From positions 1 through 60,077 of the forward strand of contig JAFQOP010000019.1 of the NCBI GenBank assembly GCA_017403155.1: a stretch of 60,077 bases of DNA, given 5' to 3'. The stretch comes from Clostridia bacterium (lineage in GTDB: Bacteria > Bacillota > Clostridia > Oscillospirales > CAG-272). The translations under genes and the position numbers were made by a program. Position 1 is the first letter of the stretch; each line of letters starts with the position of its first letter. The notes under the pieces are model-generated. The model was not told the origin of the DNA and made no database searches. It saw nothing but the letters and a program-made list of their open reading frames with translations. Shown piece by piece: positions 28,133 to 40,501 of the stretch.

Positions 28133-28180
28133 TTGACAACACTATTTAGAATGTGTATAATAAATCTAGAAACATTCTAA
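28133..28180 (+). promoter_or_regulatory. perR promoter with palindromic operator candidates
   Basis: TTGACA at 28133-28138, a 17-base spacer and TATAAT at 28156-28161. The inverted repeat TTAGAATGT (28146-28154) / ACATTCTAA (28172-28180) brackets the -10 box, and TAGAA-aca-TTCTA (28167-28179) forms a second, tight palindrome over the start site. This placement fits autorepression by a Fur-family protein. Confidence 0.8.
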
Positions 28181-28197
28181 AATGTGAGGAGAACAGT

Positions 28198-28563
28198 ATG
28201 ACAAGGCAAAGAGCTGCAATACTTCAGGTTTTGCGCTCGGACAAGTGCCATCATACGGCAGAGGAGATCTTCGATTTGGCAAAAGAGATACTTCCCACCA
28301 TCTCGCGCGCCACGGTCTACAACAACCTGAAGGCGCTCGAGGACGAGATGCTCATTCGGAGGATAGTCACGGAGGAGGGAGGCGCGCGGTACGACTCGTC
28401 GTACATACCGCACGGGCATCTGTTTTGCTCTGAGTGCGGCGGCATCTTTGATTTCACCATACCCGAATTCCACAAGGCTATTGAGGGTGCGGCAGACTGT
28501 GTGGTGGACTCCTACGAGCTCAAAATACGCGGCGTATGCTCCGCGTGCAGAAAAAACGCATAA
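28198..28563 (+). CDS. perR: PerR-type Fur-family peroxide regulator
   Basis: A 121-residue Fur-family repressor. The winged helix has HHTAEEIFDLAKE and ISRATVYNNLKAL. Regulatory metal ligands of PerR seem retained: the His in CHHTAEE, the Asp in ARYDS, HGH, and the Asp in IFDF. The structural zinc site is CSECG with CSAC at the C-terminus. It is about 15-20 residues shorter at the N-terminus than Bacillus PerR. A longer start at 28153 would lie over the -10 box, so the ATG at 28198 behind GAGGAG is preferred. Rubrerythrin follows 45 bases downstream, making an oxidative-stress operon. PerR over Fur is inferred from these ligands and the neighbour. Confidence 0.85.
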   Translation: MTRQRAAILQVLRSDKCHHTAEEIFDLAKEILPTISRATVYNNLKALEDEMLIRRIVTEEGGARYDSSYIPHGHLFCSECGGIFDFTIPEFHKAIEGAADCVVDSYELKIRGVCSACRKNA

Positions 28564-28608
28564 ATTTCAGGTCAATAATTTTTTATGATAATAAAGGAGA
28601 ATTTAAAA

Positions 28609-29142
28609 ATGGAACTCAAAGGCACAAAGACCGAACAGAATCTTATGACTGCATTCGCAGGCGAATCCCAGGCGAGAAATAAGTACACCTACTTTGCATC
28701 CGTTGCAAAGAAGGAGGGCTACGAGCAGATCGCGGCTATCTTCCAGCAGACCGCAGACAACGAGAAGGAGCACGCAAAGCTCTGGTTCAAGGCTCTCGGC
28801 GGACTTTCTGACACTGCGGCAAACCTTCTTGCAGCAGCAGAGGGTGAGAACTATGAGTGGACCGATATGTACGACACCTTTGCAAAAGAGGCAGAGGAGG
28901 AGGGCTTTAAGGCTCTTGCATTCCAGTTCAGAGCAGTAGCTGCTATCGAGAAGACTCACGAGGAGAGATATCGCAAGCTCCTTGCCAACGTAGAGATGCA
29001 GAAGGTATTTGAGAAGGCAGAGATGACTATGTGGGAGTGCCGCAACTGCGGTCACCTCGTAATGGGCAACAAGGCTCCCGCTGTTTGTCCTGTATGTGCG
29101 CATCCCCAGTCCTTCTTTGAGGTTCGTAAAGAGAACTATTAA
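28609..29142 (+). CDS. rbr: Rubrerythrin
   Basis: A 177-residue non-haem iron peroxidase of anaerobes that reduces hydrogen peroxide. The ferritin-like four-helix domain (1-140) carries the di-iron ligands in [18 protein letters not shown] and [11 protein letters not shown]. The C-terminal rubredoxin-like domain has CRNCGH near residue 145 and CPVCAH near 163, which bind a single Fe. The ATG at 28609 follows AAAGGAGAA. It is co-transcribed with perR and ends in its own terminator. Confidence 0.96.
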
Positions 29143-29228: not shown

Positions 29229-31796
29229 TTATTTTATGGATTTTATCAGCTTGCTTATATCGTCCTCAAGTCGGGAGAGCTCCTCGGAGAATTCTCGTGC
29301 GCTGACGCGCAGACCTCCCGAGCCGAGGATGATGAGCTGCTCGTCGTAGTCGTTTGTGACGACTCTGACGCTGTGTCCCTCGGCAAGTGCGTGGGTTGTT
29401 CTTTCGATATAGGAGTCGGCGGTCTCGGCATGCTTTGTGTATACCACGCTTACCCCTCCCGTTATCTCCTCGCTGCCCTCGTTGTCGGCTCTCTTGTATG
29501 CGTCGAACACGATTATTGAGCGGCATTTGTAAAAGGCGGTGTAGCTGCACATTATCCGCACAAGCATATCTCTGGCGAGGGAGAGGTCACGCTCGGCATA
29601 TCCGCGCAGGAGCTCGGAGGCGAAGATAAAGTTGTATCCGTCGATTATGACGTAGCTGTCTTTCTTTGGCTTTGTGGGGCGTTTGCGCTCCCTCTTTTCG
29701 CTCGGGGCAGAGTTTTCCACGCGCTCGGGGGCGCGACGCGGCTTGATTTTGCCGTATGTGGACTCAAATATGCGCATCAGCTCCTTGTCCTCCTCGGCTG
29801 TGCCTCGGTAGCTGACAGCGGTGGGGCGATATGCCTTGTCCTCGAGGATAGTCTCCTCCTCGCCTCCGTCGCACGCGACGTGCATGAGCGCGTCTGCCTC
29901 GTCCCAGGGCACAACGTAGCCCGAGCCGTTTTTGCAGAATACCGAGTTTGGGGTATTTCGCTCATCAAGCATTGGGTCGTAGCCTCGCTGTGCGATAACC
30001 TCCTCGGCATTGTGGCAGGGCTTGTAGGGACCCTGCGAAAAGCTGATTCTTCCTTCACCGCGAGTGTAGGCGCGCAGACGTGTCGCGTAGGAGCGGATGG
30101 TGCTGACGGGGCAGTTGCCAACGACGGTCGCGCCCGTCTCGGTCATATTCGGAGCCTCCGACGTGCCGCCCATCTGCTCAATATCTGTCATTGCTCTGCC
30201 GAGATACTCCGTCGGCAAATCTATCACAAAGTCGAAGGTGGGCTCGAGCAGGACGCACCCCGCCTTCATAAGTCCCTGCCGCACTGCGCGGTAGGTCGCC
30301 TGGCGAAAGTCGCCGCCCTCTGTGTGCTTCAGGTGTGCTCGCCCTGCGGTGAGCGTAATTTTCACGTCGGTGAGGGGAGAGCCCGTTAGTGTGCCGCGGT
30401 GCACCCTCTCCTCGATATGGGTTATGATGAGCCTTTGCCAGTTTGTTGCGAGCAGGTCTGTCGAGCAGTCGGTATCGGTGACGATACCCGTGCCCTCGGG
30501 CATAGGCTCGATAAAGAGATGAACCTCGGCATAGTGGCGCAGCGGCTCAAAGTGCCCGGCGCCGTATACCCCCTCGGCAACAGTTTCCTTATACAAAATG
30601 CTGCCCTCTCCAAAGGAGACCTCATAGCCGAATCTTTCGGAGATGATTCTCCTCAGCACCTCGGTCTGTATCTCTCCCATCAGGCGCACGCGTATTTCCT
30701 TCGCGCGCTCGTCGTAATAAAGAGAGAGGCTCGGGTCCTCCTCGGTGAGGATGGAAAGTCGGTTATATGCCTCGACAGCACTCTCACCGTCGGGCAGAAT
30801 CATTCTGTAATCAAGGACGGGGGAGAGGGAGGGCTCTGTGCTTTCCTCAAAGCCAAGACCCATGTGCGCCTCCGTGCGCGCAGGTCCGAGCACAGCGCAC
30901 ACCATGCCTGCGCGCACCCTTTGCACCTGCTTGTATTTATCGCCCGAGTAGATGCGAAGCTCCTCAATCTTTTCCTCGTACTCACCGCCGTTTTTATCTC
31001 TGACGGTTACAGTGTCCTTGGCGGCAAGACTGCCGCCCGTTATTTTCATATAAGTCAGTCTCTTGCCGAGCTTGTCTCTGCCTATTTTATATACCCTTGC
31101 GCCGAAGAGCCCCTCGGGGTATCTTTTGGAGCGGGTGTATTTGCATATCCCCTCGAGGAATGCACTGACGCCATCCATTTTGAGAGCCGAGCCGAAGAAG
31201 GTGGGGAAGATCCTCTCCCGAGCTATTGCATCGACAAGAGAGGAGTCCGAGATAGCACCCGTGTCAAAATATTCAGCCATAAGAGTCTCGTCCGCACCTG
31301 CGCATTCCTCGTCGGTTATCCCCTCTGAGGAGAAGTCGGCACACCCGACAGAGAGCGTGGAGCGCAGCTCCGTCATTATTTCAAGCCTCGTCCTTTGGCA
31401 CAGGTCCATCTTGTTGACAAAGATGAAGGTGGGGATTCTCTCGCGGCGCAGAAGGCGCCAGAGCGTTTTGGTGTGGGACTGTACTCCGTCCTGCGCACTT
31501 ATAACGAGTATTGCATAGTCCTGCACGGAGAGGGCTCGCTCCGCCTCGCAGGAGAAGTCGACGTGCCCCGGGGTGTCTATAAGAGTGATTGCCACGTCTC
31601 CTACGGAAATCTCTGCCTGCTTTGAGAAGATGGTGATGCCTCTCTCCCGCTCGAGGGAGTAGGAGTCGAGAAAGGAGGTGCGCTTGTCCACGCGGCCTCT
31701 ATGCTCTATTGCCCCCGAGGCAAAGAGAAGACCCTCGGAGAGCGTTGTCTTGCCTGCGTCGACGTGTGCCAGAATTCCTACAACAAGGTTTCTCAC
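29229..31796 (-). CDS. EF-G/TetM-like GTPase fused to Rae1/YacP-type NYN ribonuclease
   Basis: An 855-residue fusion. Residues 1 to about 660 are a translational GTPase of the EF-G/TetM group. AHVDAGKTT (from residue 10), RERGIT, DTPGH and NKMD give the G motifs, followed by domains II-V. The TetM tip sequence that contacts the tetracycline site is absent, so resistance is not predicted. A basic linker (about 680-712) leads to a complete NYN domain (about 713-855): IIDGYNF with Asp719, IVFDAYK, YTKHAETADSYIE and TNDYDEQ, closely matching Bacillus Rae1 (YacP), the A-site mRNA endonuclease. I infer a ribosome-directed nuclease. The GTG start follows AAAGGAG. The methyltransferase gene lies upstream. 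Confidence 0.88.
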   Translation of the reverse strand: MRNLVVGILAHVDAGKTTLSEGLLFASGAIEHRGRVDKRTSFLDSYSLERERGITIFSKQAEISVGDVAITLIDTPGHVDFSCEAERALSVQDYAILVISAQDGVQSHTKTLWRLLRRERIPTFIFVNKMDLCQRTRLEIMTELRSTLSVGCADFSSEGITDEECAGADETLMAEYFDTGAISDSSLVDAIARERIFPTFFGSALKMDGVSAFLEGICKYTRSKRYPEGLFGARVYKIGRDKLGKRLTYMKITGGSLAAKDTVTVRDKNGGEYEEKIEELRIYSGDKYKQVQRVRAGMVCAVLGPARTEAHMGLGFEESTEPSLSPVLDYRMILPDGESAVEAYNRLSILTEEDPSLSLYYDERAKEIRVRLMGEIQTEVLRRIISERFGYEVSFGEGSILYKETVAEGVYGAGHFEPLRHYAEVHLFIEPMPEGTGIVTDTDCSTDLLATNWQRLIITHIEERVHRGTLTGSPLTDVKITLTAGRAHLKHTEGGDFRQATYRAVRQGLMKAGCVLLEPTFDFVIDLPTEYLGRAMTDIEQMGGTSEAPNMTETGATVVGNCPVSTIRSYATRLRAYTRGEGRISFSQGPYKPCHNAEEVIAQRGYDPMLDERNTPNSVFCKNGSGYVVPWDEADALMHVACDGGEEETILEDKAYRPTAVSYRGTAEEDKELMRIFESTYGKIKPRRAPERVENSAPSEKRERKRPTKPKKDSYVIIDGYNFIFASELLRGYAERDLSLARDMLVRIMCSYTAFYKCRSIIVFDAYKRADNEGSEEITGGVSVVYTKHAETADSYIERTTHALAEGHSVRVVTNDYDEQLIILGSGGLRVSAREFSEELSRLEDDISKLIKSIK

Positions 31797-31824: not shown

Positions 31825-31851
31825 TACCCCGTGTCGAGAAAACACGGGGTA
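31825..31851 (-). terminator. Hairpin between methyltransferase and GTPase-NYN genes
   Basis: TACCCCGTGT-tttctcg-ACACGGGGTA is a ten-pair stem in the 64-base gap. The following minus-strand bases (ccactttatt) are only weakly T-rich, so termination may be partial and the GTPase may be read through from the methyltransferase promoter. Confidence 0.5.
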
Positions 31852-31860
31852 GTGTTTTAC

Positions 31861-33372
31861 TTATCTTTCGATAATATGTAAAGTTGGATTTACAATCGCG
31901 TCACAGATTTCGACACTTGTCTGCCTCGACGACATAAGGCGCATACCCATATTTTCTATGAGGTAGAGGGGAGGAAGGGGAAGATCTCTCATCTCCTTGG
32001 AGTTTATCTGCTTCGACTTCGACACGATTGAAATGTATCTGTCGTATATTGTCGAGTTGAGAAGGGCAAACAGACCGTAGGCGAGCTTTGCGGGCATCTC
32101 GATATTCTTGTCCTTCATATCAATGAAGTTCAGCTTGTTGTGCGTGGAGATGTACTTTGCCTCGGGCAGACGGGATGCAAGGTGCACTCCCGCGTTTACA
32201 AAGCGCGCGTCGCTCTTGGCCGGTACGCGCTTTATGAGTATCATATTCTTGTTTCTCTGCACAAGAGAGGGGTTGACGGGTGCGATATACTGCCGCTTGG
32301 TCGGCTGGGGAAACTCGACCTGTCCGCGCTTTATTGTAGCGGGACGCAGCAGGGGCACGGTGCCCTTTATCGGCTCGGAGAAGAGCAGTCCCTCGCACTT
32401 TGAGTCAACGATGAGACCTGTTGACATCTTAAGCCCGAGGGTGGTGAGTGTCTCGGGGAAGGAGGAGATATACTGGACTATCTTTGTATCCTCCACACTC
32501 TTGGGCAGGGTGAGGGTGCCGTCCTTTTTTGAAACTATAAAGTCGTATTTGAGGGCAGGGAGGGGCACGACCGTCTTGCCGCTGTCGGTTGAGGTCGTGA
32601 TATGGATAAGCTCAGGCTTGTCCGCCCTTTTCCAAGAGATGAGCATATTCTTCTTGAGGGGAACGGCGCGCTTTTCGTTTTTCTGCTTGCCGACAAAGAG
32701 GTGCATGCCCGTGATGGCAAGCTCCTCACTGATCTCGCTCCTGATTGGGGCGAGTGATGATGCGCTTGCGTAGGTGGTAGGAAGTGTAATGACGAGCTGA
32801 CCGCCAAGCTCGGTGTGGGTGGCGGCGAGCTTGAGAAAGAGGAAGGCAAGGCTCAGCTTGAGCTGAGATATTCCGCCGACGCCCTCCGCCTCGGGCGAGC
32901 CCTTTTCGCACAGCTCCGTCGGGGGATTGCAAATGATTATGTCATACTTGTCCGGCACAACGTCGAAGAAGGTGACCGTGTAGTGCTTCTTTGCATCGGT
33001 GAGATAATTCTCGGGATAAATTGTTACAAACAGGCGCACGTCGTAGTCGTGGCGGCACTTCTTTCTTATGCGCTCGAGGTTGTCCTCCAGCATAGGGATA
33101 TAGGTCGGGTCGCTCTCGTAGCAGGTGAGGAATATCTGCTTGCACGCGGATGCGTCGCGGCAGATGCGCTCCACCGCCGCTGCGGCGAGGATTCCCGTGC
33201 CCGCTCCCGGGTCGAGCACCGTATATACCGCCTTCTTTTTGTCTATCTCGAGCATATCCGCCATAATGCGCGCAGTGTCCTTCTTTGTGAAAAGTCTGCC
33301 GAGACGGACGTTGTCGCTCTTGGACTTCGCTCTGATGAGCTTGCTTGTGTTTCTTACCACAAGGTTAAGCAT
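31861..33372 (-). CDS. Orphan N6-adenine DNA methyltransferase-like protein
   Basis: A 503-residue protein with the layout of Eco57I/PaeR7I-type N6-adenine methyltransferases. The N-terminal GRLFTKKDTARIMADML segment is typical. The SAM motif I is DPGAGTG (54-60), acidic motif II is YESD (85-88), and motif IV is NPPT (149-152). Most active enzymes have NPPY or NPPF, so the Thr is unusual and could mean altered activity or a nucleic-acid target other than DNA. The C-terminal 250 residues resemble a TaqI-like target recognition domain (ending SKQINSKEMRDLPLPP). No restriction endonuclease is adjacent, so it is a solitary enzyme. GGAGG precedes the ATG. Confidence 0.8.
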   Translation of the reverse strand: MLNLVVRNTSKLIRAKSKSDNVRLGRLFTKKDTARIMADMLEIDKKKAVYTVLDPGAGTGILAAAAVERICRDASACKQIFLTCYESDPTYIPMLEDNLERIRKKCRHDYDVRLFVTIYPENYLTDAKKHYTVTFFDVVPDKYDIIICNPPTELCEKGSPEAEGVGGISQLKLSLAFLFLKLAATHTELGGQLVITLPTTYASASSLAPIRSEISEELAITGMHLFVGKQKNEKRAVPLKKNMLISWKRADKPELIHITTSTDSGKTVVPLPALKYDFIVSKKDGTLTLPKSVEDTKIVQYISSFPETLTTLGLKMSTGLIVDSKCEGLLFSEPIKGTVPLLRPATIKRGQVEFPQPTKRQYIAPVNPSLVQRNKNMILIKRVPAKSDARFVNAGVHLASRLPEAKYISTHNKLNFIDMKDKNIEMPAKLAYGLFALLNSTIYDRYISIVSKSKQINSKEMRDLPLPPLYLIENMGMRLMSSRQTSVEICDAIVNPTLHIIER

Positions 33373-33631: not shown

Positions 33632-36600
33632 ATGAAAAGAGCAAACAGGCTTCTCGTTCTTCTGCTTGCGGCGGCGCTGCTTCTTACGGGCGCTGTGCTA
33701 TTTGCGTTCGCGGCAGAGGAGGACGTAAGTGCTACCTCGCTTGATGCACCGTGGCAGTACGTTACCTCGTCGGGCACGACGGGCACGGCAGCAACGCTGT
33801 CCGAGGCGGTGACGGGCGCAGGCTCGGGCACCACTGTCACACTTCTCTGTGACACAACAGAGGTGACGAGTGCGAATATCGCCGACGTCAACAAGGCGCT
33901 GACAATCGACCTCGGCGGCTTTACTTACAGGGTGTCCCAGTCGGGTCAGCACGTTATATCCGTCAAGACCACGGGGGCGTTCACCCTCCAGAACGGCACG
34001 GTAGTCGTTAGCGGAAACTCCGCGTACGGAGCGGCAAACACGAGCTATACCCTTCTTCGTGCGGACACGTCTAACACCAACGTCACCGTCAAGAACGTCA
34101 CAAGCTACGTCGGTGCTCTTTTTGTAGACGGCTGGCAGGGCAGTGCCACCGTCAATATCGTTGGCGGTAAGCATCACATAGTATTCCAGGCGACCAATCT
34201 CTTCGGCGGCGGACTTGTCGAAACGCGCAAGAACACGACGGTAAACGTTACCGACACTATGGTATACGTCGGCCCCAGGAGCAACCTCATAAGCTCCACG
34301 ATGTATAACGAGGGCGGCACCACGAAATCCTCAAGCTATACCTTTACCAACACCACCGTTGTAACCTCGGGCGGCGAGGGGAGCCTTTTTGTCTATGCAA
34401 ACGAGTATACCACCGCTAAGTTTGACGGCTGTATGCTTTACGGCACGATAAATCCCACGCATAATTCTTACGACGCGAATAAATCGATAGGCGCGATAAA
34501 GGATGGCGCCATCACGATGACGGGCGGCACAACTATCGGCACAACGGTAGGTCAGCCCTTCCGCGACGGACTCGTTTCGGGTGAGAGCTACCGTCAGATA
34601 ATAGAAAACAAGACGAGCTTCACTCTCTCAAGCGGAAGCATGTATTTTGATACCGCGTCGGGAACGGTAGCCGATGCGAGCTTTGCAATCGATTCCTCCG
34701 CGACCGCGCTTTCATTTATCACAACCACCTGCTACGGTGATGCGGCGGACTTCGGCTTCAGCTATGATATTGGCGGTGTGAGCTATTACACAAGCTCTCT
34801 CAACCACGCGCTTACCTACGCGGAGAGCACCGTCGGGGTTCTCAAGAGCACGAATATCGATATTTCCGCAGAGGATTACGGAGTTATAAGAAGCAGAGTT
34901 ACCATCGATCTCGGTGGCGGCTCAATGAAGCTAAAGGACACCTCAGCGTCCTCCCTTCGTCTCGGTGACGGCGCGAGCATAACGATAAAGAACGGCACCG
35001 TCGTCAAGCGCGGCACTAAGCTCTCTGACCCCACTGCGGCACTCTTTGCGATAGAGGGAGACGGAGTTTCGGTTACCTTCGAGAACGTCAACGTCTTCTC
35101 GGGCGGGCTTGTTAAAAACAACGGCGGCGAGGGCTTCGTTCTCACCGCTACGGGCAGCTCCTTCAACGGCATCAACGGCTCCACGGGCGAGTGGAATTCG
35201 CTTATTGAGTCGGACACCGCCTTCACTCTCAAGGCAGAGAACTCGAGCTTCGTCAGCGATGCCGACACCGCAATTCTTTCGGTCGTTGCCTCCGAGGTGA
35301 GCTCGCTCAGCTTCAAGAGCTCCAAGCTCGTATCCCTCGACTCGGCAGCTCTCATCAGATACGCAAACGATAACCTGAAAATTACGGTCAACGGCGGCTT
35401 CGTGAGCGGAATTCTCGCTCCCGCGCTTGCAGAGGGGGATACTGCTCCCGCAATGGGTCGCGGCTGCGTGACGGTAAAGGCGGGCACGTACTTCGGAGAC
35501 GTTGCCTCGAATACTGCGGGAATCGTTTCTATATCGGCAAAGCACGTATTCAACACCGTTACCAAGAATGATAGCGTCGCATACGTCAGCAACACAGGCG
35601 CGGCGCGCACTACCATCATCAGCTATGTCTGGCAGATAGGCACCCCTGCCGAGGGCTCTGCGGTTTCCTATACCTATGGCGGTGCCACCGTTGTCGGCAC
35701 CGACCTCAAGTCGGCTCTTTCCCTCGTTGACGAGGGCGGAACGGTAACTCTTCTCAAGAGCATGATTCTCACCGAGAGTGCAAAGGGCTTTGCAGCCTTT
35801 AACAAGCCCATGACTCTCGACCTTGGCGGATATACCCTCGCCGTTATTCAGGAGGGCGAGGCGTGCTTCTACGCAAACGCAGACGTCACTATCCGCAACG
35901 GCAGCATGCGTGCGGTTATGAACGTCAACGCGCCCTATCCCGGCAGAAGCTATCCCTTGCTTTGCTACGGTATAAGCAAGAGCAACGTAACGATAAATCT
36001 TGAAAACGTAAATACCTACGGCGGCTCGTTCATTTACACCTATAACGGCACGGACCACGCGCTTAACGTGGTGGGCGGTGCGCACTATGCGTTTAACCGC
36101 GGCACAGGCTGTGACAACGGCTGGCTTGACGTCAGATGTAACTTCAGCTTCAGTGCGACCGACGCACTCTTTGTTACGAGCTCCGAGAGCTGGCTCGTTT
36201 CCTCCCTTTCCTTTAAGGATACCGATACGGCAGACCTTGCGGCAGAGTTCGTGTTCGAGGGCTGCAGCATACTTTCTGACGGCGGAGTCTCTAACGTGAT
36301 AGGACATGCTAACGAGAATTCCACCTTCGTATTCAACGGATGCGATATATACGGTGCGCTCAACCCGAGCGTAAACTCCAACGATAAAAATGCAGGCTAC
36401 GGTGCGATAGGCGCAGGCGGCATCACCCTCGGAGAGGGAACGCGTATAAACGGTGCGGCGAGACTCATCGGTGGCGGCGTTATTGTTGCTGCCGACGGCT
36501 TCATTCTTGCTGACAGAGCCTACACCGACACCGTTGCTGTAAAGGAGGCGTCCTACGATTCCGAAACGGGCAACTTCAAGCTGTCCGGCACGACCGTCGT

Positions 36601-39600
36601 GGCAAGCTACACCAAGCGCGTAGTGGACGAGAATGACACCCTCATTACCGTCAGCTTCTATGCCGCCGACGGCAAGACTCTTGTAGAGAGCTTCGAGGTC
36701 GCAGCAGGCACGGTCATAACTCCTCCCGAGTATACTCTCAGCATGTCCAACGGATGGTATTCGTCGCAGTTCGCAGGCTGGAGCACCTCTGTCACGGGCG
36801 GCACCGCAGCTACCGATTTCACCGCTGTGGAGGACGTCAGCTACTATCCTCTTCATTCCGAGGAGCTCTATGCAGACTTTACTGCGGCGCGCTACAACCT
36901 CGCCTTCGTCGGTAAGGTAAGAAACTTCCTCTACATTCCCGAGCCCCCCGAGGGCGTCGAGCTCATCTCGGTGGATGACGGCAACGGCACCGAATTCACT
37001 GGCTACAAGGTAAAGCTCTCCGACGGTATCACCTACCGCATGTATATGATAGGAGAGGTTGGCGCTGCCGAGCTCTCGGAGGAAATTACGGTCAGCATCG
37101 TTTACTCCTTCTCAGGTGAGGTGCATACCCAGGCTTTGTATCTCTCTCCTCTCAAGTATGCCACGGCAGTTCTCAAGGATGCTGTCTCGGACGCTCCCGC
37201 ATTCCCCGAGAGCGCGCATATCCTTGTTGCTGACCTTGTCAGATACTCGAACAGCCTCAATAGGATTGTAACCGGCTCTGACGACTCGGCTCTTGTCGCG
37301 CTCCTCGAGCAGTACGGCGCACTTAATTCGACACTCCCCTCTGAGAACGACTTCACCGAGTACCGTGCCAACACGACCCCCCTCGCGGGCACCATTGCCT
37401 CGGTACAGCTCGAGGTATCCTCTACCGAGCCGAGATGGATAATCAATATAGCCTCGGGTGTTGACGTTGAGTCGATATCCGTGAGCATGGATGGCTATCT
37501 TCCTACTGTAACGAACGGTGTGAGCTTCGGTTCTCTCACCTACGAGGCATATGCCAACGCAGCAGGCACCACGTTCTATACCGAGAACATTCCTATGTAT
37601 AACCTCGACCGTCTTATGACGATAACCGTCAGACTCGCAGACGGCACCGAAAGGGTTGGTACATACAACCTCGATGCATATTACAACGGCTTTTCCACCA
37701 CGGGCGAGAGTGTGGAGGCAATCCGCACCTTCCTCAAGGCATTCCGCGCATTTGCGTCAAGCTCCTCGGGCTATAAGTACGGCAACGAGATAGTCAGAGA
37801 GGGAGGATATCTCGACTTCTTTGACTGTGAGCACACCGACCTGCGCGCATATTCGGCAGGCAGCGGCAGATTCTGCTACGGCTGCGGAACCTACCTCTTC
37901 TTCTATTCCGATTACGGAGCTGTCGCAGACGGTGTGTCCGACAGGGCAGGCACCGCAAGCGGCACCAATGACTTCGATGCAATCTATGAGTGTCACGTCT
38001 CCGCCAACAACTGGAGCGCGCTCGGCAACAGAAGTGCCGTTGTGGCAGTGGGCGGCAGCCATAACCGCACAACCTATTACATAGGTGCATCCACCAATCT
38101 CAAAACTATTCCCATCCGCACGGACGTGCTCTGGAGCGGCGCAAACCTCATTGTTGACGACCGTGCTGTAAAGCAGACCGTAGGTGACTACTACATCCCC
38201 GTATTCACCGTCGCCCGCGGCTCCGAGTCGGCAATGATAGATTATTCCGCCTCCGTTACGACGGGCATATCCAAGGGCGCGACCGACATCGGCTTTGCTC
38301 CCGGTGTCCCGGCGATAGTTCATCTTATGGACAGAAGCATCAAGAGATACATCCGTGAGGGTGCCAATGCCGACGGCGGCTCCTATCAGGCCGAGGTCGT
38401 CATCGTTGACGAGTACGGCAACGTAAGCCCCTCGACTCCCATTCAGTGGGATTATCCCAACGGCGCCTACTGCAAGAGCGATTGCGCGACTGTTGATGCC
38501 GATGCAAACAACACCTGCGATACCTGCGGCACTGCTATCGGCAAAGCGATGCTCGTCAAGGCATATCCCATCAATGACGCTCCTATCACCATCTCGGGTC
38601 TTGACCGCGAGGGTAATATCAACTTCACCTGGGAGAACGTGACCGACAGTACCGTAAACGTTCTCAAGTACGACCAGTGCCAGAGAACGATACAGGTAGA
38701 GCGCTCCAACGTAACGATTCGTGGCATCGACCGCTACTTCACCGAGGACGACGATAACACCACGCCCAGGCAGGCGTATGCAGGCATCGTGGACATCGGA
38801 ATCAGCAACAACGTAGTTATCAGCGATATGCTGCTTTGGCAGAGCCTCGGTCACTATGTCCAGAACGCCGACGGCACCAATACCACGACCTCTCTCGGCT
38901 CGTATGAGTTCTCCGCAGGCAACTGCACCAACGTCTCCTGGATAAACTGTCGGATGAAAAACTTCTTCTGGTCGGACGGAAGCATTACATACAGAGGTAT
39001 GTTCGGTACCAACGGACTCCGTAACGCCTACCTCAAGAACTGCTTCCTCAACTCCTTCGACTCTCACTCGGGTCTTTACAACGCAATTATCGAGGACTCG
39101 ACCTTCGACCACATCAACTTTATAGGCGGCGGCGACGTTTACCTCAAGGACGTAACGATTTATACCGCGCAGTCGTACAAGATGGCGATACATCTGCGTC
39201 AGGACTACGGCGCAACCTGGAACGGTAATTTCTATATCGACGGGCTTGATATCAGATATTCCTCCAAGTTTACGGGCATGTCGTATATAGACCTCATAAG
39301 GGGCTATTACACCAACTGGTACTTCGGCTACGATACCTACCTTCCGAGGAGGGTTGAGGCAAGCAACGTGGTAATCAGCAAGTACACCCGTACCAGTCCC
39401 GAGTGCGAGTTTGTGGGCGGCACTCTCGTCGAGAATATAGTCAGCACCAACGAGATACCGCTGGCTATCTACGGCTCGCTTAACACCGCGCTGAAGAACG
39501 ACTACGACTATTCCACGGTGAACGCGAATAACGAGGACCCCAAGCACTGCACGGAAGAGATTTACTTCTCCGACAACGGCACTCTTACCTATAAGTATCC

Positions 39601-40501
39601 CGACCATCCCTTCTTCAAGGATATGAAGATATACATCGACGGCACGGAGAAGACAGATTGGTATACCAAGCGCTCGTCTCTCAAGTGCACGGACACGGAC
39701 GGAGACAAGGTGTGCAACACCTGCTTTGCAGCTATCAGCTGCTCGGCAGAGCACCCCACCACAGGTGATACCACTGCCAGCTGCTCCACCTGCGGCGCAA
39801 CGGTAAGCGCAACGAGCTCCGGCAGCGACTCGGGTGAATGCGTAACGGGCGATACTCTCATCACCCTTGCCGACGGCACGGTAAAGCGCATCGACGAGCT
39901 GACGGGCGAGGAGCTTCTGCTTGTATTTGACCACTACACGGGTGAGTACACCGCCTCCCCCATCGTCTTTATAGAGAACGACGGTGTAAGTGATTACACG
40001 GTAGTGACGCTCACCTTCTCCGACGGTGGCGCGACGAGGCTTATATATGAGCACGGATACTTCGACCTCACCCTTGGTGAGTACGTTTACGTTACTCCCG
40101 ATAATTGCCTTGACTTCGTCGGTCACGAGTTTGCCAAGAGCACGGGGGAGGGCTTCGAGGCGGTAAGCCTTGTAAGCGCGGAGGTCGAAACCGTAGAGGT
40201 CGGCTGCTACTCTCTTGTAACCGCATATCACTATAACTTCATCGTCGACGGCATTCTTTCGATGCCGGGCGGAATTGACGGAATCTTCAACATCTTCGAG
40301 TACGGAGATGACCTCAAATACGATGAGGAAAGGATGGCGGCGGATATTGCCGAATACGGTCTTTACACCTACTCCGACTTTGCCGACTACGTAACCGAGG
40401 AGGTTTATGAAATCTTCCTTGCAACGTACTATAAGGTCGCGGTAGGAAAGGGTATGATAACCCTCGACGAAATCTACGCTTATATAGCAAAATATCTCTA
40501 A
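33632..40501 (+). CDS. Giant secreted beta-helix protein with C-terminal Hint domain
   Basis: A 2289-residue exported protein. Residues 1-28 are a Sec signal peptide. Three diverged repeats of a TvtLl...tiDLGG type start near 45, 385 and 690, and look like right-handed beta-helix adhesin or polysaccharide-binding modules. Residues about 1005-1060 resemble an InlB/Flg_new repeat (SFEVAAGTVITPP...FAGW). From YGAVADGVSD (1428) to about 1930 the sequence looks like a pectate-lyase-type beta-helix. Cys-rich C...C-x2-C-G motifs follow the beta-helix, with one embedded near 1610. Cys2070 starts a Hint (Hedgehog/intein) domain, CVTGDTLITLADGT, ending near HYNFIVDG (about 2200); a helical tail of 85 residues remains. 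There is no LPXTG. GGAGG precedes the ATG. The substrate is unknown. Confidence 0.85.
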   Translation: MKRANRLLVLLLAAALLLTGAVLFAFAAEEDVSATSLDAPWQYVTSSGTTGTAATLSEAVTGAGSGTTVTLLCDTTEVTSANIADVNKALTIDLGGFTYRVSQSGQHVISVKTTGAFTLQNGTVVVSGNSAYGAANTSYTLLRADTSNTNVTVKNVTSYVGALFVDGWQGSATVNIVGGKHHIVFQATNLFGGGLVETRKNTTVNVTDTMVYVGPRSNLISSTMYNEGGTTKSSSYTFTNTTVVTSGGEGSLFVYANEYTTAKFDGCMLYGTINPTHNSYDANKSIGAIKDGAITMTGGTTIGTTVGQPFRDGLVSGESYRQIIENKTSFTLSSGSMYFDTASGTVADASFAIDSSATALSFITTTCYGDAADFGFSYDIGGVSYYTSSLNHALTYAESTVGVLKSTNIDISAEDYGVIRSRVTIDLGGGSMKLKDTSASSLRLGDGASITIKNGTVVKRGTKLSDPTAALFAIEGDGVSVTFENVNVFSGGLVKNNGGEGFVLTATGSSFNGINGSTGEWNSLIESDTAFTLKAENSSFVSDADTAILSVVASEVSSLSFKSSKLVSLDSAALIRYANDNLKITVNGGFVSGILAPALAEGDTAPAMGRGCVTVKAGTYFGDVASNTAGIVSISAKHVFNTVTKNDSVAYVSNTGAARTTIISYVWQIGTPAEGSAVSYTYGGATVVGTDLKSALSLVDEGGTVTLLKSMILTESAKGFAAFNKPMTLDLGGYTLAVIQEGEACFYANADVTIRNGSMRAVMNVNAPYPGRSYPLLCYGISKSNVTINLENVNTYGGSFIYTYNGTDHALNVVGGAHYAFNRGTGCDNGWLDVRCNFSFSATDALFVTSSESWLVSSLSFKDTDTADLAAEFVFEGCSILSDGGVSNVIGHANENSTFVFNGCDIYGALNPSVNSNDKNAGYGAIGAGGITLGEGTRINGAARLIGGGVIVAADGFILADRAYTDTVAVKEASYDSETGNFKLSGTTVVASYTKRVVDENDTLITVSFYAADGKTLVESFEVAAGTVITPPEYTLSMSNGWYSSQFAGWSTSVTGGTAATDFTAVEDVSYYPLHSEELYADFTAARYNLAFVGKVRNFLYIPEPPEGVELISVDDGNGTEFTGYKVKLSDGITYRMYMIGEVGAAELSEEITVSIVYSFSGEVHTQALYLSPLKYATAVLKDAVSDAPAFPESAHILVADLVRYSNSLNRIVTGSDDSALVALLEQYGALNSTLPSENDFTEYRANTTPLAGTIASVQLEVSSTEPRWIINIASGVDVESISVSMDGYLPTVTNGVSFGSLTYEAYANAAGTTFYTENIPMYNLDRLMTITVRLADGTERVGTYNLDAYYNGFSTTGESVEAIRTFLKAFRAFASSSSGYKYGNEIVREGGYLDFFDCEHTDLRAYSAGSGRFCYGCGTYLFFYSDYGAVADGVSDRAGTASGTNDFDAIYECHVSANNWSALGNRSAVVAVGGSHNRTTYYIGASTNLKTIPIRTDVLWSGANLIVDDRAVKQTVGDYYIPVFTVARGSESAMIDYSASVTTGISKGATDIGFAPGVPAIVHLMDRSIKRYIREGANADGGSYQAEVVIVDEYGNVSPSTPIQWDYPNGAYCKSDCATVDADANNTCDTCGTAIGKAMLVKAYPINDAPITISGLDREGNINFTWENVTDSTVNVLKYDQCQRTIQVERSNVTIRGIDRYFTEDDDNTTPRQAYAGIVDIGISNNVVISDMLLWQSLGHYVQNADGTNTTTSLGSYEFSAGNCTNVSWINCRMKNFFWSDGSITYRGMFGTNGLRNAYLKNCFLNSFDSHSGLYNAIIEDSTFDHINFIGGGDVYLKDVTIYTAQSYKMAIHLRQDYGATWNGNFYIDGLDIRYSSKFTGMSYIDLIRGYYTNWYFGYDTYLPRRVEASNVVISKYTRTSPECEFVGGTLVENIVSTNEIPLAIYGSLNTALKNDYDYSTVNANNEDPKHCTEEIYFSDNGTLTYKYPDHPFFKDMKIYIDGTEKTDWYTKRSSLKCTDTDGDKVCNTCFAAISCSAEHPTTGDTTASCSTCGATVSATSSGSDSGECVTGDTLITLADGTVKRIDELTGEELLLVFDHYTGEYTASPIVFIENDGVSDYTVVTLTFSDGGATRLIYEHGYFDLTLGEYVYVTPDNCLDFVGHEFAKSTGEGFEAVSLVSAEVETVEVGCYSLVTAYHYNFIVDGILSMPGGIDGIFNIFEYGDDLKYDEERMAADIAEYGLYTYSDFADYVTEEVYEIFLATYYKVAVGKGMITLDEIYAYIAKYL

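Follow-up and report, generated by a model that had tools for sequence, protein, structure and literature searches.

One uninterrupted frame in the window (the whole 60,077-nt stretch of DNA that was analyzed) encodes a single protein of 855 residues in which an EF-G/TetM-like GTPase is followed by a nuclease domain of the Rae1 (YacP) type, and, judged from the gene content of related genomes, this fusion stands in for the free rae1 gene. The presence of both halves in one protein, as read in the original prediction, was borne out by Pfam profile matches to each of them. Their combination suggests, with a probability that we estimate at roughly 0.55, a GTP-switched, ribosome-tethered Rae1 borne by a translation-factor GTPase in the same chain, which would cut mRNA on stalled ribosomes. 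With Rae1 welded to a translation-factor GTPase and the free gene given up, GTP, ribosome state and cleavage become accessible to study in one protein. The architecture did not prove to be novel, as had first been supposed, since the fusion has been in print since 2015 (PMC4342817, available excerpts). As far as our searches show, what is added here to the literature searched is the separation of the GTPase from the Tet proteins, the single fusion, the substitution of rae1, whose slot is left empty, and the sister proteins that lack the NYN domain.

Architecture of the fused protein and its gene

The predicted frame of 855 codons was recovered intact on the minus strand, with a GTG start codon preceded at 7 nt by an AAAGGAG Shine-Dalgarno sequence; its features are listed in Table 1. 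The joining of two genes by a sequencing error, named in the original prediction as an alternative origin of this frame, or by an assembly error was rejected, since the fusion runs without a break through 48 further loci, from 47 genomes, which excludes a joining by chance or by sequencing error.

Table 1. Features of the fusion gene and of its upstream region (window coordinates).
Feature	Residues	Position	Strand	Evidence or remark
Whole GTPase-NYN fusion gene		29229..31796	-	855 aa; GTG start; stop 29229-29231
G domain	1-222	31131..31796	-	Pfam GTP_EFTU; all GTPase motifs including DTPGH
Domains II + III	223-398	30603..31130	-	Pfam EF-G_D2 just under cut-off, EFG_III; EF-G fold in model
Domain IV	399-512	30261..30602	-	Pfam EFG_IV; most conserved part of the protein
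Domain IV tip loop HFEPLRHYAE	415-424	30525..30554	-	family-specific
Domain IV tip loop KHTEGGDFR	490-498	30303..30329	-	SP[VA]STPADFR at this place in aligned Tet proteins
Domain V	513-597	30006..30260	-	Pfam EFG_C
Family-specific C-terminal extension	598-642	29871..30005	-	NYN-less relatives end about here
Linker	643-712	29661..29870	-	mostly disordered; pLDDT <50 at 645-664 and 685-711
Helix inside linker	667-681	29754..29798	-	motif E-L-x-x-I-F-x-x-T-Y/F; helix in model
NYN_YacP (Rae1-like) nuclease domain	713-855	29232..29660	-	Pfam, Rae1 structure sequence, conserved residues
11-bp hairpin just upstream of the gene		31825..31851	-	z -3.4 for 104-nt stretch

In the GTPase half, Pfam matches were obtained to GTP_EFTU (residues 4-221, 5e-51), EFG_III, EFG_IV (400-512) and EFG_C (515-596). 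Residues D13, K16, T17, T55, D74, G77, H78, K129 and D131 were present in all 49 fused proteins that were compared, and N128 in 47 of them. Mean column conservation reached 0.79 in domain IV, as against 0.62-0.69 in the other domains, and both tip loops of this domain were retrieved by pattern in most members of the family, whether fused (HFEPLRHYAE in 49 and KHTxGGDFR in 47 of 52 rows) or NYN-less (28 and 30 of 32 rows, respectively). In or next to the C-terminal extension, C594, H595, C621 and H639 (residues 594-642, positions 29871-30017, minus strand) were invariant or nearly so; this set is a possible metal site.

The linker that follows measures 55-110 residues in the 49 fused proteins, about 70 in that of the window, with a conservation of 0.33. 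The helix lying inside it retains E672 in 47, I676 in 43, T680 in 41 and Y/F681 in 46 of the 49 proteins. The linker had been described beforehand as basic; it is indeed present, but its basic character is confined mainly to its second half.

The profile search that had been proposed for residues 713-855 gave a significant match (6e-39): NYN_YacP aligned with residues 716-852 at E-values of 6e-39 to 1e-40 and 134-140 bits, for a curated cut-off of 24.6. When this part was compared by sequence with solved structures, up to an E-value of 1, only YacP/Rae1 of B. subtilis was retrieved (5mq8/5mq9, 1e-19), with an alignment spanning residues 4 to 142 of its chain. D719, N722, D765, T792, D794, E798, D816 and Q820 were found in 49 of 49 fused proteins, and the same eight residues in 50 of 50 free Rae1 proteins, except for T792 (48 of 50). 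The profile match stops at position 139-140 of 166, leaving the C-terminal part incomplete, so that the NYN domain of the window lacks the last ~26 residues of Rae1, a shortening shared by some of its relatives. The domain had been called full, which holds for its acidic residues and for the motifs then listed but not for these C-terminal residues. In the available excerpts of PMC6613710, the substitution R166P, located in the C-terminal part of Rae1, arose among B. subtilis suppressors and was read by the authors as a loss of function.

As for the neighborhood, a type II DNA methyltransferase-like gene (31861-33372, minus strand; PADLOC MTase_II, 1.7e-56) lies directly upstream of the fusion gene on the same strand, and a strong hairpin, putatively the terminator of this preceding gene or a leader attenuator, separates the two. 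No similar neighbor was found in 50 other clustered loci. A Fur-family regulator and the adjoining rubrerythrin (28153-29142, plus strand) are convergent with the fusion gene. Positions 33632-40501 (plus strand) encode a repeat-rich, secreted-looking protein of 2289 residues that gave no Pfam match at E 0.001; the segment CVTGDTLITLADGTVKRIDELTG at its C-terminus looks to us like the start of an intein/Hedgehog (Hint) domain, an assignment that Pfam did not confirm. A conserved operon was rejected, any one neighbor being common to at most 4 of 51 loci by simple ORF clustering, on which a gene finder might improve. The fusion protein was also rejected as a known defence protein, since PADLOC gave no match at E 0.01 or better.

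Distribution and origin of the fusion

The only NYN_YacP match in the genome from which the window derives (assembly 87% complete) is that of the fusion, whose acidic residues are intact; the genome thus has no separate full rae1 in this assembly, in keeping with the original prediction. In a sample of the order, NYN_YacP was found in 101 of 295 genomes, in 95 of them within frames of at least 833 aa. Of the six others, three (G150, G193 and G205) share one frame with the GTPase and are truncated at a contig end, one (G275) is split by a frame change, and two (G107 and G215) are fragments or lie at contig ends. No clear free rae1 was found among these 101 NYN-positive genomes. The GTPase family was absent from 182 of the 295 genomes, which indicates that the system is dispensable.

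At the level of the class, the survey of fused against separate genes proposed with the original prediction gave a near-exclusive distribution: NYN was found in 249 of 391 genomes, which hand-compiled tallies from the tables (frames of at most 220 aa counted as free, of at least 640 aa as fused) divided into 129 with the fused form only, 106 with the free form only, one with both (G611) and 13 undecided. A genome with two fused copies (G424) was counted as fused only, and G427, G489 and G528 gave second NYN matches that were below the cut-off and were left out of the counts. A hidden fusion was checked for in 62 short frames, and of another 45 short frames only that of G352 was read. The undecided genomes comprise 12 with cut or odd frames and one below the cut-off; among the former is G511, with a frame of 190 aa, classed here because a GTPase frame of the family runs off the end of another of its contigs. 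A short NYN frame was found in 63 class genomes, 16 of which encode the GTPase family, as a fusion in G611, cut by a contig end in G511 and as a separate NYN-less protein in 14. The family is absent from the remaining 47, and Rae1 therefore does not need the GTPase. In a sample of the phylum, the family was found above 270 bits in 29 of 398 genomes, with 23 long frames and six NYN-less ones, four of the latter genomes having a separate free NYN and two (G1046 and G998) having none. Together with the 14 of 113 family-positive genomes of the order sample that gave no NYN match, and with the NYN-less lineages inside the fused clade described below, these cases argue that the GTPase also functions independently of the nuclease.

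The position normally occupied by rae1 was also inspected. In 50 free-rae1 loci that scored best in the samples of class and phylum, the gene lies between what we take to be rlmB and sigH in 45, beside sigH alone in four and beside neither in one, neighboring genes being named after their resemblance to one or two reference loci. Forty fused genomes were searched for SpoU-methylase (rlmB-type) genes and 30 loci, one per genome, were read for ~1.5 kb on each side; rae1 was found in none of these 30 stretches. In 14 of them rlmB is directly followed by sigH, as it also is in G509 and G628 (16 genomes), and in the 16 others, some of which may hold rlmB paralogues, sigH was not found within the stretch read. 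G611, which has both forms, keeps rae1 in the rlmB-sigH slot and carries the fusion elsewhere. Within one genus (g173), rae1 occupies the slot in G352, and six sister species (G427, G489, G528, G319, G577 and G645) combine an empty slot with the fusion. On an RlmB tree, the fused or free state requires five changes, of which well-supported branches force two or three; the exclusivity does not therefore reflect many independent events and stems in part from shared ancestry. These gene-content data indicate that the fusion stands in for free rae1.

In a 90-row tree of the GTPases, all 52 fused proteins fell into one clade (SH-aLRT 100) with two NYN-less rows inside it, and the other 30 NYN-less rows fell outside. 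A branch with support of 100/97 in the NYN tree has 51 of the 52 free NYNs on one side. The two trees agree with each other (Mantel r 0.815 for 51 proteins, against a maximum of 0.291 in 2000 permutations). For both halves, the sequences favor a single fusion event, followed by a small number of losses or fissions. Several sequences were set aside: the fused L106 was missed by the start-motif pattern and is absent from alignment A1 and the trees, L233, L234, L161 and L238 (GTPase tree) and L235 (NYN tree) were missed by it or incomplete, and duplicate free NYNs were removed before the NYN tree was built. Among the 80 named loci, a frame was found in 78, complete in 69; the DGYN/DGFN pattern is present in 66 of the 69, the others being L243, which has DAYN, and two shorter frames without the pattern (L292 and L310). 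Alignment A3 contains 61 of 63 usable named proteins.

Three loci depart from the common pattern. A free NYN of 190 aa (L054, in G529) is nested among the fused NYNs and lies away from rlmB and sigH; it is likely a later fission product. On plasmid pMP118 of L. salivarius UCC118, an NYN-less member of the family (L381), annotated as tetracycline resistance and located beside rpsN, nests inside the fused clade. In the single-contig genome G508, one in-frame stop splits the fusion gene (L373) into frames of 288 and 618 aa.

Possible mode of action

Rae1 docks in the ribosomal A site. As domain IV of an EF-G-like factor would occupy this site too, the two halves of the fusion should clash if present there together and would have to act in turn, a point that the original prediction did not address. 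In its GTP form, the protein would enter a stalled ribosome at the factor site, as EF-G or TetM does, and domain IV would probe or clear the A site. GTP hydrolysis would then swing domain IV out, and the leashed NYN domain could enter the vacated site and cut the codon lying there, after which the mRNA could decay and the ribosome could be rescued. According to the available excerpts of PMC6613710 and PMC12320835, mRNA is cleaved by B. subtilis Rae1 within the A site, which thereby becomes free for tmRNA. How Rae1 gains entry to the A site of a paused ribosome is addressed in the excerpts of PMC6613710 (2019) only by a cited hypothesis, namely that stalling raises this access. In many gut Clostridia, Rae1 is present only as the C-terminal part of a translation-factor-like protein, which suggests a way in which its cutting might be triggered on the ribosome. 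A more explicit form of this proposal, a clear-and-cut machine clocked by GTP in which an EF-G-like factor empties the stalled A site and drops its own nuclease in, replacing free Rae1 across much of Clostridia, is put forward tentatively, as a possibility that we would not bet on. No report on the activity, ribosome binding or structure of any fused protein was found in the literature searched.

Two other readings keep the protein on the ribosome. The two halves may simply be ribosome factors whose fusion ensures their joint production or anchors them, the linker doing no more than raising the local concentration of Rae1, without any gating by GTP. A long, variable and, by prediction, mostly disordered linker would suit such a tether, as would the 14 class genomes in which both halves occur as separate proteins; the persistence of the fused form across a wide range of Clostridia and the conserved helix of the linker argue against it, and we regard it as unlikely. 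In the other reading, the NYN domain of a ribosome-bound fusion would cut rRNA or tRNA, or serve the maturation or turnover of ribosomes, rather than cut A-site mRNA. The free gene travels with genes that we take to be mrnC and rlmB, both of which act on rRNA. In addition, maturation of rRNA and tRNA has been proposed for the NYN domain in the available excerpts of PMC4342817. However, mRNA on ribosomes is what the tested member of the Rae1 family cuts, and the nuclease half is part of this family, which makes the cleavage of rRNA or tRNA quite improbable. The GTP-switched Rae1 is the reading that we prefer to both.

Relation to tetracycline-resistance proteins and other known systems

In the available excerpts of Atkinson 2015 (PMC4342817), "Tet proteins" of ten Clostridiales were described as carrying a YacP-like NYN domain, and RNase-assisted tetracycline resistance was proposed for this Tet-NYN fusion. 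No other description was recognized from titles and abstracts in the literature searched, although Condon 2018, on the distribution of Rae1, may already discuss the fusion. The overall fold is of the Tet type, TetM was the best match by sequence among solved structures for the whole protein (4.5e-66, followed by TetO and EF-G), and tet_protect is the best NCBIfam model. Relatives are labeled as TetM/TetW/TetO/TetS family in public records, and others as "translation factor GTPase family protein".

The score of 414 bits against tet_protect is nevertheless far below its curated cut-off of 775, whereas the Tet(M) control reaches 877. In a 37-row GTPase tree, from which Tet(Q) and Otr(A) were left out, Tet(M), Tet(O), Tet(S), Tet(W) and TetB(P) formed one clade (100/99), 27 members of the fusion family formed their own (100/99), and three EF-Gs formed a third (100/100). 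The tip loop SP[VA]STPADFR of these five Tet proteins is HxVDSxE in EF-G and KHTxGGDFR in the fusion family. By tree and by tip residues, the GTPase is a distinct family and not Tet, and its identity as a tetracycline-resistance protein was rejected on the tree, the tip loops and the NCBIfam cut-off. The original prediction that the tip residues of TetM are absent and that a Tet label would mislead was confirmed by these loops, the separate clades and the public labels. A Tet ribosomal-protection protein that gained an RNase, its GTPase dislodging tetracycline with the help of the RNase, as Atkinson 2015 and the NCBI labels would have it, is very improbable for these reasons and in view of an order-wide occurrence without conserved neighbors in 51 loci. 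Counts of resistomes can be inflated by genes of gut commensals that lie outside the named-Tet clade and are filed as tetracycline resistance.

The fusion protein can thus be set against five known systems. With Tet(M/O/S/W) and TetB(P) it shares the GTPase fold, being about 30% identical in sequence to Tet(M), Tet(O) and Tet(S), but it differs from them in its clade, its domain IV tip loops, its C-terminal extension and the added nuclease. The EF-G loops of domain IV, SGGxGQ and HxVDSxE, are absent from the fusion protein, and the window genome encodes an EF-G of its own besides; the C-terminal extension of the family is lacking in EF-G and is unlike that of TetM. The NYN-less sister GTPases have the same family membership, tip loops and C-terminal extension, but end at about the start of the linker, without linker or nuclease, and some genomes have them beside a free rae1. 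Rae1/YacP of B. subtilis (5mq8, 5mq9) is a homologous NYN nuclease with the eight tested residues in common; free rae1 encodes ~170 aa and usually lies between rlmB and sigH, whereas the fused NYN is a C-terminal domain at another locus and, in the window, shorter by ~26 residues. Finally, the Tet-NYN proteins of Atkinson 2015 (PMC4342817, available excerpts) have the same architecture and come from the same bacterial group, and the window gene is one of their members. They were classed there as Tet and tied to resistance, whereas the present sequences place the GTPase outside the clade of the five Tet proteins and indicate that the NYN domain replaces rae1.
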